Virus record (IMG/VR): IMGVR_UViG_3300020578_000348
Coordinates: 1 to 27,713 of that record
Origin: a virus
Direction: 5' to 3' (one strand)
DNA length: 27,713 bases
Of the stretch, positions 1,988 through 27,600 are shown in pieces. Numbering within the stretch: the first letter of the stretch is position 1; every line of letters starts with the position of its first letter. The position numbers and the translations under genes were made by a program. The notes beneath the pieces are model-generated. The model searched no databases and was not told the DNA's origin. It saw nothing but the letters and a program-made list of their open reading frames with translations.

Positions 1988-3445
1988 TTACACTCCAGTA
2001 CCCCACATAGATCCTGTCGCAGAAGCACCCATTGACATAAGTGTTATACTAGAACCAAGTGCACTACATGCAGTGTAATTTGCTGATCCATATGAGGTAT
2101 TATTTATCATCAAACTTCCACCACCCATACCAGTGGTGATTTGTAAAACTAATCCATCTCCTGTTCCATCTTTAACTTTAACTATTTCAACACAACGACC
2201 TGCAGGACTCGTCGATAAAAAAGATGTAATACTCAAGTTTCCATCCCCAACAGCCGATGGCGATCCGGTTGTATTGTCTATTACTAAAATAATATCATCT
2301 GTTGGTAGTATAGCTTCTGTTGGGTTAGTCGAATAACCTGTGATTGTTATTGTTCTAAAATTTCTAACTCGTGAACCGCTTGTAATAAGTGAAGCAGATA
2401 CTGAAAAGTCTGCATTTACTGTAAATTCTTCACTAATTATTTTATTTTCCCAGTCTAGTACAGTATTAGCACTACTATCGTTTAATTGTCTATTATTCCA
2501 ATATATTGAAGCAGCATTAGTATCATCAATTAAAACTCTATTTTCCCAATTTATTGAGTGCTGCCCATCAAGTTTACTATAGGCTAATTGATCTTCCCAA
2601 TTAAAGTAACCGGTTGCATCAGAATTAACTAAATTTCGATTATTCCAATCTATTGATGCAATATTATCTTCATCATGGAAAAATCTATCTTCCCAACTTA
2701 TTGATTGACTTGAATTAGAATCATATGCTACTCTTCCACCCCAATCAATTGAATTTACTTCATTAGTATCAAATCCTATTCTAGTATGCCAATTTATAGA
2801 TGCACTTGAATTAGAATCAAGAGTTACTCTATTGCCCCAATTTATAGATGCACTTGAATTAGAATCAAGAGTTACTCTATTGCCCCAATTTATAGATGCA
2901 CTTGAATTAGAATCAAGAGTTACTCTATTGCCCCAATTTAGTGATTTAATTACACTAGAATCATAAGTTTCTTTAACTTGCCAATCTATTGATAAATCTG
3001 CAGTATTGGAAAAAACTTGTCTATCTTTCCAATTTATTGAAAATTGGTTATTGTCATCATAAGCTTCTCTATTATCCCAATTTATTGAATTTACATTAGA
3101 TGAATCTATTAAGTTTTTAGTATTCCATTGAACAGTAATTTGTCCATTATCATCATGTAATCTATTAAGTTCCCAATCTATTGAAATGTCTTCATTACTG
3201 TTATATGCTATTCTATTATCCCAATTTATTGATTGACTTACATTAGAATCAATTAAACCTGCAACAGCAGTATTAATACCACCATTAGACCCAGATGCAA
3301 CTAAAGATCCAGTTAAATTGAATGAGCCAGAAAGAGAAATATCATATGCTACGGTTCCGGTAAAAGCATCAATTGATTGAGAAACATGATGTGCTTCAAC
3401 TATATTTCCTGTTCCTATTCCTACTTGAGTGAGTATATTTGCCAT
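1988..3445 (-). CDS. Fibre-like structural protein with 17 SINW-type repeats
   Basis: A 485-residue protein. The N-terminus (about 1-70) is glycine/serine-rich and resembles a virion attachment segment. From about residue 75 to 335 there are 17 copies of a roughly 16-residue unit with consensus S-I-N/D-W-x-N-R-x-x-x-D-S-N, each carrying one tryptophan. The remaining 150 residues form a threonine/glycine-rich beta domain ending GSMWGTGV, a plausible tip or trimerisation domain. From memory, SIDW/SINW repeats of this kind occur in fibre or appendage proteins of phages in Bacteroidota-rich metagenomes. Three repeat units are identical at DNA level. The gene is the last structural one before SET and primase. 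An ATATTTAT element lies 5 bp before the start. Whether it is a tail fibre, head fibre or other appendage cannot be told. Confidence 0.72.
   Translation of the reverse strand: MANILTQVGIGTGNIVEAHHVSQSIDAFTGTVAYDISLSGSFNLTGSLVASGSNGGINTAVAGLIDSNVSQSINWDNRIAYNSNEDISIDWELNRLHDDNGQITVQWNTKNLIDSSNVNSINWDNREAYDDNNQFSINWKDRQVFSNTADLSIDWQVKETYDSSVIKSLNWGNRVTLDSNSSASINWGNRVTLDSNSSASINWGNRVTLDSNSSASINWHTRIGFDTNEVNSIDWGGRVAYDSNSSQSISWEDRFFHDEDNIASIDWNNRNLVNSDATGYFNWEDQLAYSKLDGQHSINWENRVLIDDTNAASIYWNNRQLNDSSANTVLDWENKIISEEFTVNADFSVSASLITSGSRVRNFRTITITGYSTNPTEAILPTDDIILVIDNTTGSPSAVGDGNLSITSFLSTSPAGRCVEIVKVKDGTGDGLVLQITTGMGGGSLMINNTSYGSANYTACSALGSSITLMSMGASATGSMWGTGV
2789..2940 (-). repeat. 48-bp tandem repeat, about 3.2 exact copies
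   Basis: Within the fibre gene, sequence repeats exactly with period 48 bp (copies beginning at 2821, 2869 and 2917, plus a partial copy upstream). The unit encodes 16 residues, SINWGNRVTLDSNSSA, so changes in copy number keep the reading frame. Neighbouring units encode the same pattern but have diverged in DNA. The exact copies therefore look like a recent expansion by slippage or recombination. Confidence 0.95.
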
Positions 3446-21012: not shown

Positions 21013-21753
21013 TTATAAATTTTGAAATTCTATATATCCCTGATCTAAGTAGAATAAATAATTTTTCTTAAATATATTATGTAATATGTTTGCTATTTTA
21101 GTAATTTTAGGAGTTTTAGCATCTGGGATCATTTCATGAATATAGATATAAAGGGCTTTTTTATTGAATATATCTATTTGGTCTCTTTTTCTAAATAATT
21201 CTATAATAGCATCTGCTATTTTAGCATCATATTCTTTTGGAAAAATATCATATATGTTAAAACTTATATGTTCAATATACTTATCCATAAAATTAGAAAG
21301 GCGTTCATTTGGATCAAAAGATTCTAATGTATATGAATGAGAGTTATCTTTTGATAATTCATCTACTGAGGTTTTATTAATTTTATTTTTATAATTTTTT
21401 TCGTTATATAATATACACCATCGTTTTACAATGGTTCCAAAATAAGAATATGCTTTAGCTCCATTATTAGGATTAAATAAATGAATTTTAGAAAGTAAAA
21501 AAACTATAATTTCATGTTGTAGATGTTCTAAATTTTCTACCTCAGTATTATAAAATTTAAAAGTATGGATTATATTTTGAGTTAATTTAAAAAAAGCATA
21601 ATGTATTTTTTCTTCATATATTTTGCTTCGTAAAGATGGATTAGTTGTATTATTATATAATACAATTGCATCTTCAGTTTCTTGAGTAAAATAATTTTTA
21701 CTTTTAGCTTTTTTTGGCACTTTTTTAATTGAATTTTCTAAGATTAAATTCAT
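21013..21753 (-). CDS. Late-transcription sigma factor, T4 gp55-like
   Basis: A 246-residue helical, basic protein. Residues about 70-125 match the sigma region 2-like core of T4-type late sigma factors. They contain LEHLQHEIIVFLLSKIHLFN, then NGAKAYSYFGTIVKRWCILY, the analogue of the FDETKYKNPHAYITQACFN segment of gp55. The N-terminus has FTQETEDAIVLYNN. gp55 directs host RNA polymerase to late promoters (TATAAATA in T4) together with gp33 and the sliding clamp. It is longer than T4 gp55 (185), with an extra C-terminal helical part. Its ATG lies inside the end of the preceding membrane-protein gene (29-bp overlap). It immediately precedes the late structural block it would serve. Confidence 0.8.
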   Translation of the reverse strand: MNLILENSIKKVPKKAKSKNYFTQETEDAIVLYNNTTNPSLRSKIYEEKIHYAFFKLTQNIIHTFKFYNTEVENLEHLQHEIIVFLLSKIHLFNPNNGAKAYSYFGTIVKRWCILYNEKNYKNKINKTSVDELSKDNSHSYTLESFDPNERLSNFMDKYIEHISFNIYDIFPKEYDAKIADAIIELFRKRDQIDIFNKKALYIYIHEMIPDAKTPKITKIANILHNIFKKNYLFYLDQGYIEFQNL

Positions 21754-22987: not shown

Positions 22988-23081
22988 TTTATTATATTGT
23001 TTATTATTTTTTATAACTTTATATTATTTCAATAATTTAATATTAAAATATAATTAAAGGTAATAACTTTTTTTTAGGGAA

Positions 23082-23534
23082 TCAAGTTTCTTTTAAAGAA
23101 ACTTTAAGAATTTCTTTTTCTATAAACTTTTGAATTTTTATTAAAAAGGCACACTTTTCAAATTCTTCAATATTTTCAAAATATTTTATACTTAATTTTA
23201 AACAGACCAAAAAATCAGAATTAGCACTATTTTGTAATGCTTCTTTCCAATCTTTTCTCTTTGTATTACATTCACTAATCCAATACCAAGCCCTATTAAA
23301 CATCATAAAATCCCCAGCTTCACCAATACCCAATACATCTAAATCTTTATCAGATTTACTAAAAAATCCTACTATTTGTTTTTTAAAATTTGTTCCATTT
23401 AGAATCATTTTAGTAAACATTCCAATTTTGAAAAAAGGAGTTTCTTTAAAATCTTCTATTTTTTTTCTAGTGATTTTATCTTCTTCATTTTCTTCAGAAA
23501 ATCCAAACAATGCAAATATGTTTCCTATTCTCAT
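23082..23534 (-). CDS. 150-residue protein of unknown function
   Basis: No family recognised. It begins with a hydrophobic FALFGFSEE segment. The middle contains GIGEAGDFMMFNRAWYWISE and a helix-rich C-terminal half with FLVCLKLSIKYFENIEEFEK and FLIKIQKFIEKE, resembling a small helical-repeat or peptide-binding fold. No transmembrane helix is convincing. It has its own CGTATATTC element 31 bp upstream of the ATG, directly after the stop of the previous gene. Its last codons lie in a 21-bp inverted repeat (23084-23104). Confidence 0.6.
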   Translation of the reverse strand: MRIGNIFALFGFSEENEEDKITRKKIEDFKETPFFKIGMFTKMILNGTNFKKQIVGFFSKSDKDLDVLGIGEAGDFMMFNRAWYWISECNTKRKDWKEALQNSANSDFLVCLKLSIKYFENIEEFEKCAFLIKIQKFIEKEILKVSLKET

Positions 23535-23564
23535 ATCTCTATATGTATATACAATTTTCCAACA

Positions 23565-23573
23565 GAATATACG
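23565..23573 (-). promoter_or_regulatory. CGTATATTC early-type promoter element
   Basis: CGTATATTC on the coding strand, starting 3 bp after the stop of the 79-residue gene and 31 bp before the ATG of the 150-residue gene. A TTGTATATAC stretch follows at a wider spacing than in the other copies. Member of a set of six in the right-hand 4 kb. Confidence 0.4.
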
Positions 23574-23575
23574 TG

Positions 23576-23815
23576 TTAATTCGTTGATTTTAATGTTTTA
23601 ATTTTTAAATCTAAATCATTAATTTTACTCTCTAAATAAGCTATAGATTTTTTTAATTCATCATAAGCCTTAATTGGATTAATAAAATCAGGATTACCGG
23701 GATGATATTTCCACATTTCATCCAACACATCACAATTATTAATTAATTGATTTTGAAGTAAAATCATTTTATTTTCTAAATCTTGTAGTTCCATATCTAC
23801 AATTTGTTCATACAT
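23576..23815 (-). CDS. Small coiled-coil protein
   Basis: A 79-residue protein with two helical stretches (DLENKMILLQNQLINNCDVL and YDELKKSIAYLESKINDLDL) around a short central loop containing WKYHPGNPDF. The heptad pattern predicts a dimeric coiled coil. It overlaps the end of the T5orf172-like gene by 8 bp, so the two are co-translated. The ATG at 23815 is preceded by AGGAACAAAAT, the closest thing to a ribosome-binding site in the neighbourhood, lying within the upstream coding sequence. No function is known to me. Confidence 0.6.
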   Translation of the reverse strand: MYEQIVDMELQDLENKMILLQNQLINNCDVLDEMWKYHPGNPDFINPIKAYDELKKSIAYLESKINDLDLKIKTLKSTN

Positions 23816-24260
23816 ATTTTGTTCCTATTTGTTCTATAATTTGTTTAGCTTCCTTTAATGATACCCTAAAAAATTCTCTTTGAGGATTAACTCTTTGTTT
23901 TTTAAAATACTTATGAACTTCCTGTTCTATACGCTCACCTTTAAAACATTTAAATGCCCATTCAACCTCAAAACCCACAGGAACTCCTGTTCCACGAGAC
24001 ACTTGAGTTGCCCTATCAAAAGGATCTTTTTTAGTATAACCTATCTTAACCATATCAGGAATCGCGGGATTTGACAAAATATAAACCCATTCATCACCTT
24101 CTCGGCCTACAAATAGACCTCGCTTTTTACCCGTGTAATATGTTATTTTATCCCAACCATCTTGTTGTTCTTGAACCGTAAAATATGTAGGTGGATTATT
24201 TGAATAATCTTCAGAACAAGGAATAAATTTTTTAGCTTCTTCATGTGTAATTCGTTCCAT
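23808..24260 (-). CDS. T5orf172/GIY-YIG-superfamily protein
   Basis: A 150-residue protein. Residues about 57-145 match the T5orf172 (MUG113) domain: WVYILSNPAIPDMVKIGYTK with the paired YIL/KIG strands (residues 59-75), FDRATQVSRGTGVPV with an arginine at 83, IEQEVHKYF with a glutamate in the helix, and REFFRVSLKEA. The domain belongs to the GIY-YIG nuclease superfamily and is frequent in phages, sometimes with DNA-binding modules. The first 55 residues here form a small extra domain (YTGKKRGLFVGREGDE). DNA processing is the best guess; nuclease activity is unproven. The leader has the sequence AATAAAGGTTATAATG, shared in part with the 93-residue gene. Confidence 0.78.
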   Translation of the reverse strand: MERITHEEAKKFIPCSEDYSNNPPTYFTVQEQQDGWDKITYYTGKKRGLFVGREGDEWVYILSNPAIPDMVKIGYTKKDPFDRATQVSRGTGVPVGFEVEWAFKCFKGERIEQEVHKYFKKQRVNPQREFFRVSLKEAKQIIEQIGTKYV

Positions 24261-24278
24261 TATAACCTTTATTTTTAT

Positions 24279-24530
24279 TTAAAATCTAGCTTTAGCACCC
24301 GAACCCTTATACCAAGGTAATCCTTCTCTTTCTTTACATAAATCTTTCCATTTTGCCTCCGTATATTTAATTCCATTTAAATAATACTCACGTTTCCTTG
24401 CATTCCCTTCAGGAATTAAAGCAGGTCCTTCCCAATTATGTAATTTCCCATCAAATGTATACATTATAGTACCATCTGTTTTGGTTAATTTTCTTGATTT
24501 TTGGTATTTACTATTTTCCATTTTTTCCAT
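24279..24530 (-). CDS. Small MORN-like phage protein
   Basis: An 83-residue basic protein. The segment DGTIMYTFDGKLHNWEGPA followed by REYYLNGIKYTEAKWKD resembles a MORN-type beta-hairpin repeat (G-x-L-H-x-x-x-G-P-A and YYLNG-x-x-x-x-E), a pattern common in small proteins of T4-like phages. The start is the ATG at 24530 or the in-frame ATG at 24521; both lie within the last bases of the preceding membrane-protein gene. Function unknown. Confidence 0.62.
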   Translation of the reverse strand: MEKMENSKYQKSRKLTKTDGTIMYTFDGKLHNWEGPALIPEGNARKREYYLNGIKYTEAKWKDLCKEREGLPWYKGSGAKARF

Positions 24531-24792
24531 AAATTAATTCGATAAAAAATTTTTCTAATTCAAATGGTTCAGAATATTTATATATTTTATAACATGTAAA
24601 AATACATCCTAAAATTACCATTATAGATACACCATTAAATGGAATAAAACCCATTATTGTTAAAATAATATCTGCAATGCCTAGGACAACAAACAATAAA
24701 AAAGCAATTTCGTGCTTACGAATCTCACGATTTAATTTTTTTAATCTCTCTTGAGCTTCTTGTTGGCTCATATTTTCCAAATTTTCTAACAT
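24511..24792 (-). CDS. Two-helix membrane protein
   Basis: A 93-residue protein with a charged N-terminal helix (SQQEAQERLKKLNREIRKHE), then two transmembrane helices at about residues 29-48 (IAFLLFVVLGIADIILTIMG) and 53-70 (NGVSIMVILGCIFTCYK), and a short charged tail. Size and topology would suit a holin or other small inner-membrane protein, but no catalytic partner lies beside it, so holin is only a possibility. It has its own promoter-like element (24810-24829) and an AATAAAGGTTATG leader. Confidence 0.62.
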   Translation of the reverse strand: MLENLENMSQQEAQERLKKLNREIRKHEIAFLLFVVLGIADIILTIMGFIPFNGVSIMVILGCIFTCYKIYKYSEPFELEKFFIELIYGKNGK

Positions 24793-25196: not shown

Positions 25197-25292
25197 TTAT
25201 CGTTTTGTGATAAATATTTCAAAAAAACTAATTATAGCGGTAATTGTTAAAGATAAGATTCCTAAGGGTAAATATATTAGTTTACTTAACAT
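25197..25292 (-). CDS. 31-residue membrane peptide
   Basis: An ATG at 25292 overlaps the stop of the preceding gene (TAATG). The peptide starts MLSKLIYLPLGILSLTITAI and ends FFEIFITKR: one transmembrane helix with a basic C-terminal end. It fills the gap between two genes exactly, with its stop directly abutting the ATG of the next. Position and coupling are the main evidence. Function is unknown. Confidence 0.55.
   Translation of the reverse strand: MLSKLIYLPLGILSLTITAIISFFEIFITKR
25210..25217 (-). promoter_or_regulatory. ATATTTAT element, candidate late promoter
   Basis: ATATTTAT on the coding strand, 13 bp before the ATG of the 112-residue structural-type protein and within the 31-residue gene. 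A TTTG lies just upstream. Confidence 0.3.
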
Positions 25293-25486
25293 TATGCAAA
25301 CATTAAAAATCCTATGGCTATACCTGCAGATATACCTATAATAGTGCCTGTAAGGTATTTTGTATCGTTAATTTTTTCTTCCATTTCTTTGGCTTGTTCA
25401 AAAATTTGGGTTTCTGATAATTCACAAGTTCCATTAACAATTTTAATTATTTGGTCTTGAAACCATTCTACTGCTGATTTTTTCAT
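25292..25486 (-). CDS. Small AVEW-family protein with C-terminal membrane helix
   Basis: A 64-residue protein. Residues 1-35 (KKSAVEWFQDQIIKI ... QIFEQAKEMEEK) match a very common small phage protein family with an AVEW start and a KEMEK helix, seen by me mainly in phages of Bacteroidota. Normally that family is soluble. Here it continues into a transmembrane helix, YLTGTIIGISAGIAIGFLMF (residues 44-63). The promoter-like element at 25503 lies 16 bp before the ATG. The next gene, another membrane peptide, starts in its stop codon. Confidence 0.65.
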   Translation of the reverse strand: MKKSAVEWFQDQIIKIVNGTCELSETQIFEQAKEMEEKINDTKYLTGTIIGISAGIAIGFLMFA

Positions 25487-25502
25487 ATTTTATGTTTATT
25501 TA

Positions 25503-25511
25503 GAATATACG
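25503..25511 (-). promoter_or_regulatory. CGTATATTC element in a 12-bp palindrome
   Basis: CGTATATTC on the coding strand, part of the perfect palindrome ATATACGTATAT (25505-25516). It is followed by TAAATAAACATAAAAT and the ATG of the 64-residue gene. A TTTG lies about 20 bp upstream, at the spacing of a Bacteroidota -33 box. It is the promoter-proximal end of the non-coding region. Confidence 0.42.
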
Positions 25512-25516
25512 TATAT

Positions 25517-25799
25517 CTTTTATCAATGGCAAAGATCTTTTAAAAAGAAGAATTTTGATTTTTGTGGGTTTTTATTCCTTTGGCTTATTTGAAAATTGTG
25601 GGTGTGATGTGGGGAGATATATAGTTATATACAATGTCGATGGGTAAAGATCGTGTTCGAGTTGTGAAGTGGTCTAAGCACCGTTCCTCCCCACCCCGTC
25701 ATATATTGACAACGGCGCGCGTGGGGATGTATAACCATATTATTACTATATCACTACCATATATATACCGCCGTACCACACCAAATCTACCACCTTTAT
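25517..25799. other. Non-coding stretch with complementary G-rich/C-rich blocks
   Basis: No convincing gene lies on either strand. The sequence changes from A/T-rich (25517-25600) to mixed. GTGGGGAG at 25609-25616 is complementary to CTCCCCAC at 25687-25694, and CCCCAC there can also pair with GTGGGG at 25721-25726, giving two mutually exclusive stems. A short GC-rich minus-strand frame (25625-25738, 37 codons) is open but unsupported. This could be a structured RNA, a leader or simply the edge of the repeat array. Confidence 0.4.
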
Positions 25800-26420
25800 A
25801 TCTTAGGCCTTATACCTCATACCTTCACCATATCACAGAATCACCATATTCACAGGGTCACAGGGTTATTGGATCACAGGGTCTCTGGTCTCATACCTCC
25901 ACAATCCTGGGTCTCTATGGTCTCGGGTCTCATATCTCATACCTCATATCTCTGGTCTTATACCTCATACCTCCAGGCTACCAGGGTTACCAGATTCTCA
26001 TACCTCATACCTTATACCTTAGATCTCATACCTCAGGTCTCATACCTCCAGGGTCACCAGGGTCACCAGGGTCTAAGGGTCTTATATCTCATACCTCATA
26101 CCTCATGTCTCGGATCTCATACCTCAGGTCTCTGTTCTTATACCTCTACCATATCACCAGGGTCACAGGGTATCTGGTCTCGGGGTCTCATACCTCATAC
26201 CTCATGTCCCAGATCTCCATGTTACCCAGATTACCAGGGTCTAAGGGTCTAATACCTTATATCTCATACCTCATACCTCTAGGGTCACCAGGGTTACCAT
26301 GGTCTCGGGTCTCATACCTCATACCTCATACCTCATACCCCCAAATTCTCAGACCCCATATCTCAGGTCTCGGGTCTAAGGTCTCATATCTCAGTTCTCA
26401 TACCTCATACCTCCACTGTC
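25800..26420. repeat. GC-rich interleaved short-repeat array (CTCATAC / CAGGGTCAC / TCTCGGGTCT)
   Basis: About 620 bp is built from a few short units, all in one orientation. On the plus strand: CTCATAC, found about 21 times, often in tandem (four in a row at 26311-26338); CAGGGT, 11 times, including three tandem CCAGGGTCA at 26048-26074; and TCTCGGGTCT-type links. Larger blocks recur, for example GGTCTAAGGGTCT followed by ATCTCATACCTCATACCTC near 26070 and 26238. By hand count, lines 26041-26100 and 26281-26340 are 50-53% G+C against about 25% at 24601-24660. The minus (transcribed-sense) strand is rich in GAGGTATGAG purine tracts. Plus-strand frames stay open only because the units contain no stops. 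Confidence 0.9.
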
Positions 26421-26459
26421 TCACCATTTCACCTGTTTCGAGGTTTGGGATCTTACCAC

Positions 26460-26591
26460 TTACCCATTTTCAAACCAGTAAAACGCTAGCTTACCCTCGG
26501 GTGTTAAGACTGTAATTATGGCTTCATCAAAGTTACCGTCTATATTTTGGATTCGGGGTCTATTAATCTTAATAAATGTGTCTACGCTCAT
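26460..26591 (-). CDS. 43-residue small protein
   Basis: An ATG at 26591 opens a frame reading MSVDTFIKINRPRIQNIDG then FDEAIITVLTPEGKLAFYWF, ending with ENG and TAA. It has normal amino-acid composition, an alternating beta-strand pattern and codons richer in G/C (CCC, CGA, GTC, GAG) than the rest of the window, like its two neighbours. The start lies 3 bp after the GGGG that follows the hairpin at 26602-26619, so the hairpin is either the terminator of the previous gene or a leader attenuator. It ends just before the repeat array. No family is recognised. Confidence 0.6.
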   Translation of the reverse strand: MSVDTFIKINRPRIQNIDGNFDEAIITVLTPEGKLAFYWFENG

Positions 26592-26594
26592 GAA

Positions 26595-26620
26595 CCCCAA
26601 AAGCCCGATTGCTCGGGCTC
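26595..26620 (-). terminator. Hairpin terminator or attenuator
   Basis: The coding strand reads GAGCCCGAGCAATCGGGCTTTT: a perfect 7-bp AGCCCGA/TCGGGCT stem with a 4-base loop, then TTTTGGGG. It lies between the 96-residue gene's stop and the 43-residue gene's ATG. It is a near copy of the element at 26996-27023, including the ACACCCTG before and TTTTGGGG after. The U-tract is only four or five long. Confidence 0.7.
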
Positions 26621-26652
26621 CAGGGTGTATAATTAAAAGATAAAATTGTTAC

Positions 26653-26943
26653 TTATTCAAAATCCATGTGAGCCATCTCATCATGTAGGTCTTGGAGCCG
26701 CTGTCTATCATACATCTCCTCTTTGTATGTCTTGGGCTTAACCAATCTAAAACTATCATCACCGAGACCCTCAAACATCACATCGTACTCATCCCATACC
26801 TGTCTTGCTTCTTCAAACGTGGAGAATACATCTTTTGGCTCCATCTCTAGGGTATAGGTCTTGATCTCATTAAACTTGGTTACCAATCCTAACTCACGCT
26901 CTAATACTTCTCTTACAATCACTTTTACTCTCATATGTCTCAT
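26653..26943 (-). CDS. 96-residue acidic protein of unknown function
   Basis: I choose the ATG at 26943 because a promoter element ends 3 bp upstream (26947-26966). An extension to 27024 would run through the promoter and hairpin. The protein begins MRHMRVKVIVREVLERELG, a beta-strand and helix. It continues with YTLEMEPKDVFSTFEEARQV (an FSTFEEA turn typical of small alpha/beta phage proteins) and ends in an acidic, histidine/methionine-rich tail (LQDLHDEMAHMDFE). Codon use is more G/C-rich than the structural genes. No family is recognised. Confidence 0.65.
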   Translation of the reverse strand: MRHMRVKVIVREVLERELGLVTKFNEIKTYTLEMEPKDVFSTFEEARQVWDEYDVMFEGLGDDSFRLVKPKTYKEEMYDRQRLQDLHDEMAHMDFE

Positions 26944-26946
26944 TTT

Positions 26947-26966
26947 ATTTATACACCCAATATACG
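26947..26966 (-). promoter_or_regulatory. CGTATATTG-TGTATAAAT bipartite promoter element
   Basis: CGTATATTGGGTGTATAAAT on the coding strand, 3 bp before the ATG of the 96-residue gene. The second box contains TATAAAT, close to the T4 late consensus. An ACACCC/GGGTGT inverted repeat (26953-26958 with 26971-26976) spans the element. The leader would be nearly absent. Confidence 0.55.
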
Positions 26967-26995
26967 AACCGGGTGTCTGATCTCCATGTCCCAGA

Positions 26996-27023
26996 CCCCA
27001 AAAGCCCGGATCAACCGGGCTCA
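26996..27023 (-). terminator. Hairpin terminator
   Basis: The coding strand reads GAGCCCGGTTGATCCGGGCT then TTTTGGGG: a perfect 7-bp AGCCCGG/CCGGGCT stem with a 5-base loop. It follows the 39-residue gene by about 45 bp and precedes the promoter at 26947. The loop and one stem pair differ from the copy at 26595-26620 while the stem is kept, which is compensatory evidence for a functional hairpin. Confidence 0.75.
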
Positions 27024-27067
27024 CAGGGTGTATAGTTAAAAGATAAGTGCTGTCTCTCCAGCTGTCA

Positions 27068-27187
27068 TTATTGTATCTTTATTGGCTTAATACCTTGAGG
27101 TGTTTTTACGGCCATATATTTTTCTCCAATCCGGATCAACTTTCGGGTGTTCTGGCATATCAGTTCAAATGGGGCTATCTTAATCAT
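27068..27187 (-). CDS. 39-residue small protein
   Basis: An ATG at 27187 overlaps the stop of the preceding 33-residue gene in an ATGA junction. It reads MIKIAPFELICQNTRKLIRI then GEKYMAVKTPQGIKPIKIQ, and ends TAATGA. It is basic and has beta character, and codon use (CCC, CGG, CTG, GCC) is G/C-richer than the structural genes. A strong hairpin terminator follows. Unknown function; coupling and terminator are the support. Confidence 0.55.
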   Translation of the reverse strand: MIKIAPFELICQNTRKLIRIGEKYMAVKTPQGIKPIKIQ

Positions 27188-27285
27188 ATCTTTCTAGATT
27201 CTTTAATTGAATCGATAATAACCCTAATCCCAACACATATAAGTGCTAACCATATTATTCCAACTACTATTTTTACTATTTCCAT
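27184..27285 (-). CDS. 33-residue membrane peptide
   Basis: An ATG at 27285 opens MEIVKIVVGIIWLALICVGI followed by RVIIDSIKESRKI: one transmembrane helix and a basic cytoplasmic tail. It couples to the 39-residue gene by ATGA. A 69-bp A/T-rich leader separates it from the promoter at 27365; that leader contains a short frame (27287-27355, 22 codons) that is too weak to call. Confidence 0.5.
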   Translation of the reverse strand: MEIVKIVVGIIWLALICVGIRVIIDSIKESRKI

Positions 27286-27364: not shown

Positions 27365-27384
27365 ATTTATACACTCAATATACG
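27365..27384 (-). promoter_or_regulatory. CGTATATTG-TGTATAAAT bipartite promoter element
   Basis: CGTATATTGAGTGTATAAAT on the coding strand, upstream of the 33- and 39-residue genes and 25 bp after the stop of the 41-residue gene. It differs from the 26947 copy by one base. Confidence 0.55.
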
Positions 27385-27409
27385 AACTATACTTTAATTA
27401 TGTTATTCC

Positions 27410-27547: not shown

Positions 27548-27567
27548 AATTATACAATCAATATACG
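27548..27567 (-). promoter_or_regulatory. CGTATATTG-TGTATAATT bipartite promoter element
   Basis: CGTATATTGATTGTATAATT on the coding strand, directly downstream of the hairpin terminator at 27572-27600 and 12 bp before the ATG of the 41-residue gene. Terminator and promoter are almost back to back, marking a separate transcription unit. Confidence 0.55.
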
Positions 27568-27571
27568 AAAC

Positions 27572-27600
27572 AAAAATAAAGCTGCTTATTCCTAAGCAGC
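27572..27600 (-). terminator. Strong hairpin terminator overlapping a stop codon
   Basis: GCTGCTTA/TAAGCAGC (27581-27588 with 27593-27600) is a perfect 8-bp stem with a 4-base loop, followed on the coding strand by TTTATTTTTG. The last codons and the stop of the AT-hook-like gene form the left arm. Confidence 0.8.

Follow-up and report, generated by a model that had tools for sequence, protein, structure and literature searches.

In one survey, heptamers were reported to outnumber every other class of long simple repeat in most genomes, and heptameric repeats have been ascribed to polymerase slippage (PMC4679880, PMC4692102). Intergenic examples include TAACTGA in Beggiatoaceae, Cyanobacteria and Bacteroidetes (PMC4679880), and GGGAATC in Xanthomonas and GGGGA(C/T)T in Nostoc (PMC4692102). 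Xanthomonas heptamers lie between the same gene pairs, with extensive variation in length and sequence (PMC4679880, PMC4692102). The tandem repeats of the archaeal Borgs are perfect, A-rich and distributed genome-wide, with about half of them in genes (PMC9879509).

Here we describe a repeat array in an IMG/VR record of 27,713 bp, hereafter the window (the whole stretch of DNA that was analyzed), which is likely a genome fragment. The phage has a relative in Flavobacterium phage immuto (160 kb), with approximately 51% identity in the primase and 44% in the baseplate wedge protein. The sample type of these contigs points to a freshwater origin. The genes of the window lie on the minus strand, and the array is flanked by a conserved non-coding element (CE) on one side and a small gene, termed gene A, on the other (Table 1).

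Table 1. Features of the array locus, in window coordinates.
Feature	Position	Strand	Evidence
Repeat array (minisatellite)	25777..26459	.	Unit counts and spacings, shuffles, TRF; variable or absent in relatives
Single G-quadruplex-type motif GGGTCACCAGGGTCACCAGGGTCTAAGGG in the array	26051..26079	+	Motif scan
Conserved non-coding element (CE)	25500..25776	.	30 other IMG/VR contigs; alignment of 26 distinct sequences
Gene A, small conserved protein MSVDTFIKINRPRIQNIDGN...FYWFENG	26460..26591	-	Same-place orthologues in 15 relatives
Small gene, 98 aa, early-type region	26653..26949	-	Next after gene A; query that found relative L013
Small gene, 64 aa, across the CE from the array	25292..25486	-	Relatives found by search
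ORF, 293 aa, across the array; judged spurious	25634..26515	+	In-frame stop in L008

Results

Extent, units and composition of the array

The array occupies the whole spacer between the CE and the gene A stop codon. Positions 25800–26420, given as its full extent in an earlier sequence-only reading, represent the core of a slightly longer repetitive spacer. Within this core CTCATAC occurs 21 times and CAGGGT 11 times, exactly as that reading had counted, and neither is found on the opposite strand; the maxima reached in 1000 dinucleotide-preserving shuffles were 3 and 7, respectively. The core also holds three copies of CCAGGGTCA and three dispersed copies of TCTCGGGTCT. Self-match of the array at period 7 was 0.50, compared with 0.27 ± 0.02 in shuffles, and the spacing between successive CTC-type units was exactly 7 nt in 22 of 35 cases. 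TRF identified imperfectly repeated higher-order blocks of 62, 75 and 91 bp, bearing out the earlier description of units recombined into larger blocks. The reported G+C contrast holds against the window as a whole (0.473 in the array versus 0.294) but is smaller against the surroundings, the right-hand genes at 26461–27030 having a G+C content of 0.416.

Near-identical contigs of this phage end within the array (L014/L020, which are one contig, and L015), as expected of a real repeat that breaks assemblies, while two contigs of another phage (L032 and L033) have one array in common with only two substitutions. The array is real, and its copy number is that of the assembly. It shares with bacterial intergenic heptameric simple sequence repeats (SSRs) and minisatellites short tandem units in direct orientation, a non-coding location, and length variation at the same place among close relatives. 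The uniform 7-nt period of a pure heptameric SSR was not found, since 8- and 9-nt units are interleaved with the dominant 7-nt unit; these units, together with the dominance of period 8 in relatives L024 and L186, assign the array to the minisatellites rather than to pure heptamer SSRs.

A single plus-strand G-quadruplex motif occurs in each of six of ten arrays (window, L008, L024, L029, L032 and L045) and in none of those of L186, L021, L043 and L013. Such motifs are rare in shuffles, and tandem GGGT words generate them by themselves.

The absence of a gene, as claimed from the sequence alone, stands insofar as the array is non-coding, although a 293-aa plus-strand ORF that spans it had been overlooked. 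This ORF was rejected as a gene: the corresponding frame in L008 ends at a stop codon once 12 codons have been read, and the heptamer gives LIPHTSY whatever the frame. Searches for tRNAs and against Rfam returned no match, in agreement with the earlier statement on tRNAs. The predicted folding stability of array RNA was not above that of shuffles (z = 0.25 for the minus strand and 1.80 for the plus strand), so that neither an above-shuffle fold nor a known family marks the array as a structured non-coding RNA.

The same spacer across relatives

A spacer flanked by the CE and gene A was compared directly in 16 phages. It measures 10–15 bp and carries no array in L023, L025, L026, L034, L036, L037, L038, L042 and L046; 79–93 bp in L021, L029 and L043; and 339 bp in L032, 398 bp in L008, 542 bp in L024, 683 bp in the window and 1,134 bp in L186. 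Two further phages, L045 (420 bp) and L013 (81 bp), have the array beside a different gene. L023 and L186 illustrate the range most sharply, with CEs that are 91% identical and spacers of 10 and 1,134 bp. Long arrays fall in four separate clades of the CE tree, interspersed with sisters that have a short array or none; this tree rests on approximately 300 columns, and recombination could distort its topology.

The repeat unit changes along with the length. Period 7 predominates in the window, L008 and L032/L033, period 8 in L024 and L186, and a mixture of 7–9 in L045. Window units are CTCATAC and CCAGGGT, with CTCATAC confined, among these phages, to the window and its close relatives; those of L024 and L186 are the octamers CAGGGTCA and CCAGGTAA; and those of L032 are GGGTCTC and GGGTCTA. 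Recovery of the same units at the same locus in relatives had been set beforehand as a test, and the location proved to be conserved while the unit did not. Within clades the arrays are partly colinear (75% over 352 columns for the window and L008, 73% over 490 for L024 and L186), which indicates that expansion acts on inherited copies. The homologous arrays are all G+C-rich (0.47–0.62) in AT-rich genomes, and words such as CAGGGT and GGGTCTC are common to arrays of different clades.

Arrays were seen at this one spacer only, and two long records that are array-free here, G001 and G002, contained no other recognizable short-period non-coding array. Over the homologous arrays the minus-strand purine fraction ranged from 0.48 to 0.62 and the GC skew from −0.36 to +0.03. 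GAGG occurs 21 times in the window and 13 times in L008. The purine-rich, GAGG-rich minus-strand transcript that had been proposed thus describes this phage and its nearest relative and fails for eight other arrays, in which GAGG occurs once or not at all.

The conserved element and neighboring genes

CE-bearing contigs were found through a neighboring-gene search and then a search with the conserved DNA beside the array; they (L008, L013 and L020–L047) include the records G001 (173,789 bp) and G002 (166,116 bp). The CE is approximately 280 bp long and comprises three related blocks with TATAT-type cores, including CATATATTGAC..CGCGCGTGG, and a terminal ACCATATATATACCGCCGTAC. It has no Rfam match and no consistent RNA fold, as the fold varies from sequence to sequence and the consensus structure is weak. 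A local G+C-skew shift is present near the CE in G001 and G002, genomes in which one strand carries almost all of the long ORFs and whose skew shows no clean whole-genome origin signature. If any part of the locus is functional, it is most likely the CE, which may act as an origin, as a promoter region or as a control site of another kind; if there is an origin here, the CE rather than the array is the candidate for it.

The array borders the gene A stop codon. Gene A encodes a protein of approximately 56 aa in relatives and 43 aa in the window, where a stop codon at 26460–26462 costs it about 13 C-terminal residues that are retained in L008. No match to the full-length L008 protein was found in Pfam or PHROG, the next gene (98 aa) likewise has no family match in either, and 25500–27000 has no DNA match in named phages. 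In front of the small genes to the right of the array, immediately ahead of the start codons, lies the motif TTCGTATATTG..TATAA(A/T)TAAAA, and G+C-rich hairpins (AGCCCGGTTGATCCGGGCT) occur between the genes. Both were observed at 26920–27060, 27370–27400 and 27550–27575, and also in L013 and L021–L047, and are probably a repeated promoter and terminator.

Farther away in the window, a 246-aa protein (21013–21753, minus strand) matched sigma-70 region 2 below the threshold and is possibly a late sigma factor. A 48-bp repeat was noted at 2692–2993, within a coding region (1988–3445, minus strand).

The heptamer in other genomes

(CTCATAC)3 occurs between genes in unrelated phages, with six stretches in viral contigs versus one for a reversed-heptamer control. 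It was also found in at least 113 bacterial genome stretches, mostly from Bacteroidota and often mixed with other heptamers. A survey of 299 Flavobacteriaceae genomes yielded (CTCATAC)3 in two and the reversed control in none; a Flavobacteriaceae host as the direct source of the heptamer is therefore unsupported. Varied heptamers, among them CTCGTAC, CTTATAC, GGGAGAT and AATTCAG, lie side by side in bacterial intergenic regions (L081, L124, L145, L079 and others), a possible general heptamer habit.

Discussion

Fixed place, variable length and a changing unit are the pattern of a minisatellite. We propose, with a probability of roughly 70%, that the array is a locus-specific non-coding minisatellite, produced by slippage and unequal recombination in the spacer that runs from the CE to the 3′ end of a small gene. 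Slippage-driven expansion had been one of several options in the sequence-only reading and is the one that the comparison supports. In such a process, replication slippage would copy seed words already in the spacer (CAGGGT, GGGTCTC and CCATGGTCTC) 7–9 nt at a time, and unequal recombination would then rearrange the copies in larger blocks. G-quadruplex motifs could aid polymerase pausing and slippage. Slippage and recombination would thus have made the array, which probably has no conserved sequence-specific role.

The G+C richness in four clades and the words common to them are not predicted by pure neutral slippage unless the arrays are young or share seeds. In an unlikely alternative, the CE and the array of an undescribed phage group would together serve as a control region, either for the start of replication or as a late-gene switch, with the array kept for an effect of its composition or length while its units turn over. 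It is slightly less probable that the spacer itself acts through its composition or length, for instance as a G+C-rich slippery buffer upstream of the CE that needs no fixed sequence. Such a role is consistent with the constant place and high G+C content in four clades and with the lone plus-strand G-quadruplex motif that six of the ten arrays carry; however, array-free relatives exist, the longest array (L186) has no such motif, and tandem GGGT words suffice to yield it.

The direct heptads in one orientation, with CTC-type units so often exactly 7 nt apart, could also be read as a protein-binding array, namely an operator or partition site resembling omega2/parS, or as a recombination or packaging site. 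The omega2 heptad is WATCACW, which occurs once in the array but in none of nine homologous arrays, and unit sequence and period vary by clade, unlike a conserved binding site; we consider this reading quite improbable.

The two remaining options of the sequence-only reading invoke a minus-strand transcript. Since neither its purine bias nor its GAGG content is conserved, both proposals fit one lineage and not the locus. R-loop-primed origins are known from T4 oriF and oriG, and a minus-strand array transcript that stays hybridized to its template could likewise prime replication. The window transcript is 62% purine with a GC skew of −0.36, a CE with AT-rich stretches adjoins the array, and two large relatives have the local skew shift near the CE. 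Against this, many relatives have no array, the purine bias, skew and GAGG words are lost in homologous arrays, and array-free regions (23000–24750 and 26500–27250) have a similar negative skew; an R-loop origin in the array is thus very improbable. Least credible is a role as a long non-coding RNA, whether in titrating the anti-Shine-Dalgarno or in some other RNA function, to which the 21 minus-strand GAGG words and the Flavobacterium context lend some sense (ribosomes that keep the anti-Shine-Dalgarno and mRNAs without Shine-Dalgarno sequences; PMC6847099), but against which stand the near-absence of GAGG from the homologous arrays of eight other phages, the absence of AGGAG from every array compared, and the shuffle-level folding on both strands with no Rfam family.

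The array itself most likely represents ordinary repeat turnover under the minisatellite reading. Its value lies in a natural series of phages with one spacer at approximately 10, 80, 340, 400, 540, 680 and 1,130 bp, in which the origin, growth and unit changes of short repeats can be followed, a subject usually studied in bacteria and eukaryotes. The CE, 280 bp of non-coding DNA conserved across large phages of an uncultured group, makes a good control-region candidate.

Comparison with described systems

The likeness to T4 oriF and oriG consists solely in the idea of a purine-rich transcript beside an AT-rich conserved region; unlike those origins, the phage array is missing in many relatives and its purine bias is not conserved. 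Borg tandem repeats, like the array, are fast-evolving, independently formed and partly intergenic, and belong to an extrachromosomal element (PMC9879509), whereas the phage array is imperfect, G+C-rich and restricted to one spacer. Bacterial heptameric SSRs resemble it in their head-to-tail 7-nt units between genes, in the G-quadruplex motifs that some of them carry, and in the slippage proposed as their cause. In contrast to these SSRs, the array is found at one phage locus, where units of 7, 8 and 9 nt are interleaved in one mosaic and the dominant unit differs from clade to clade.
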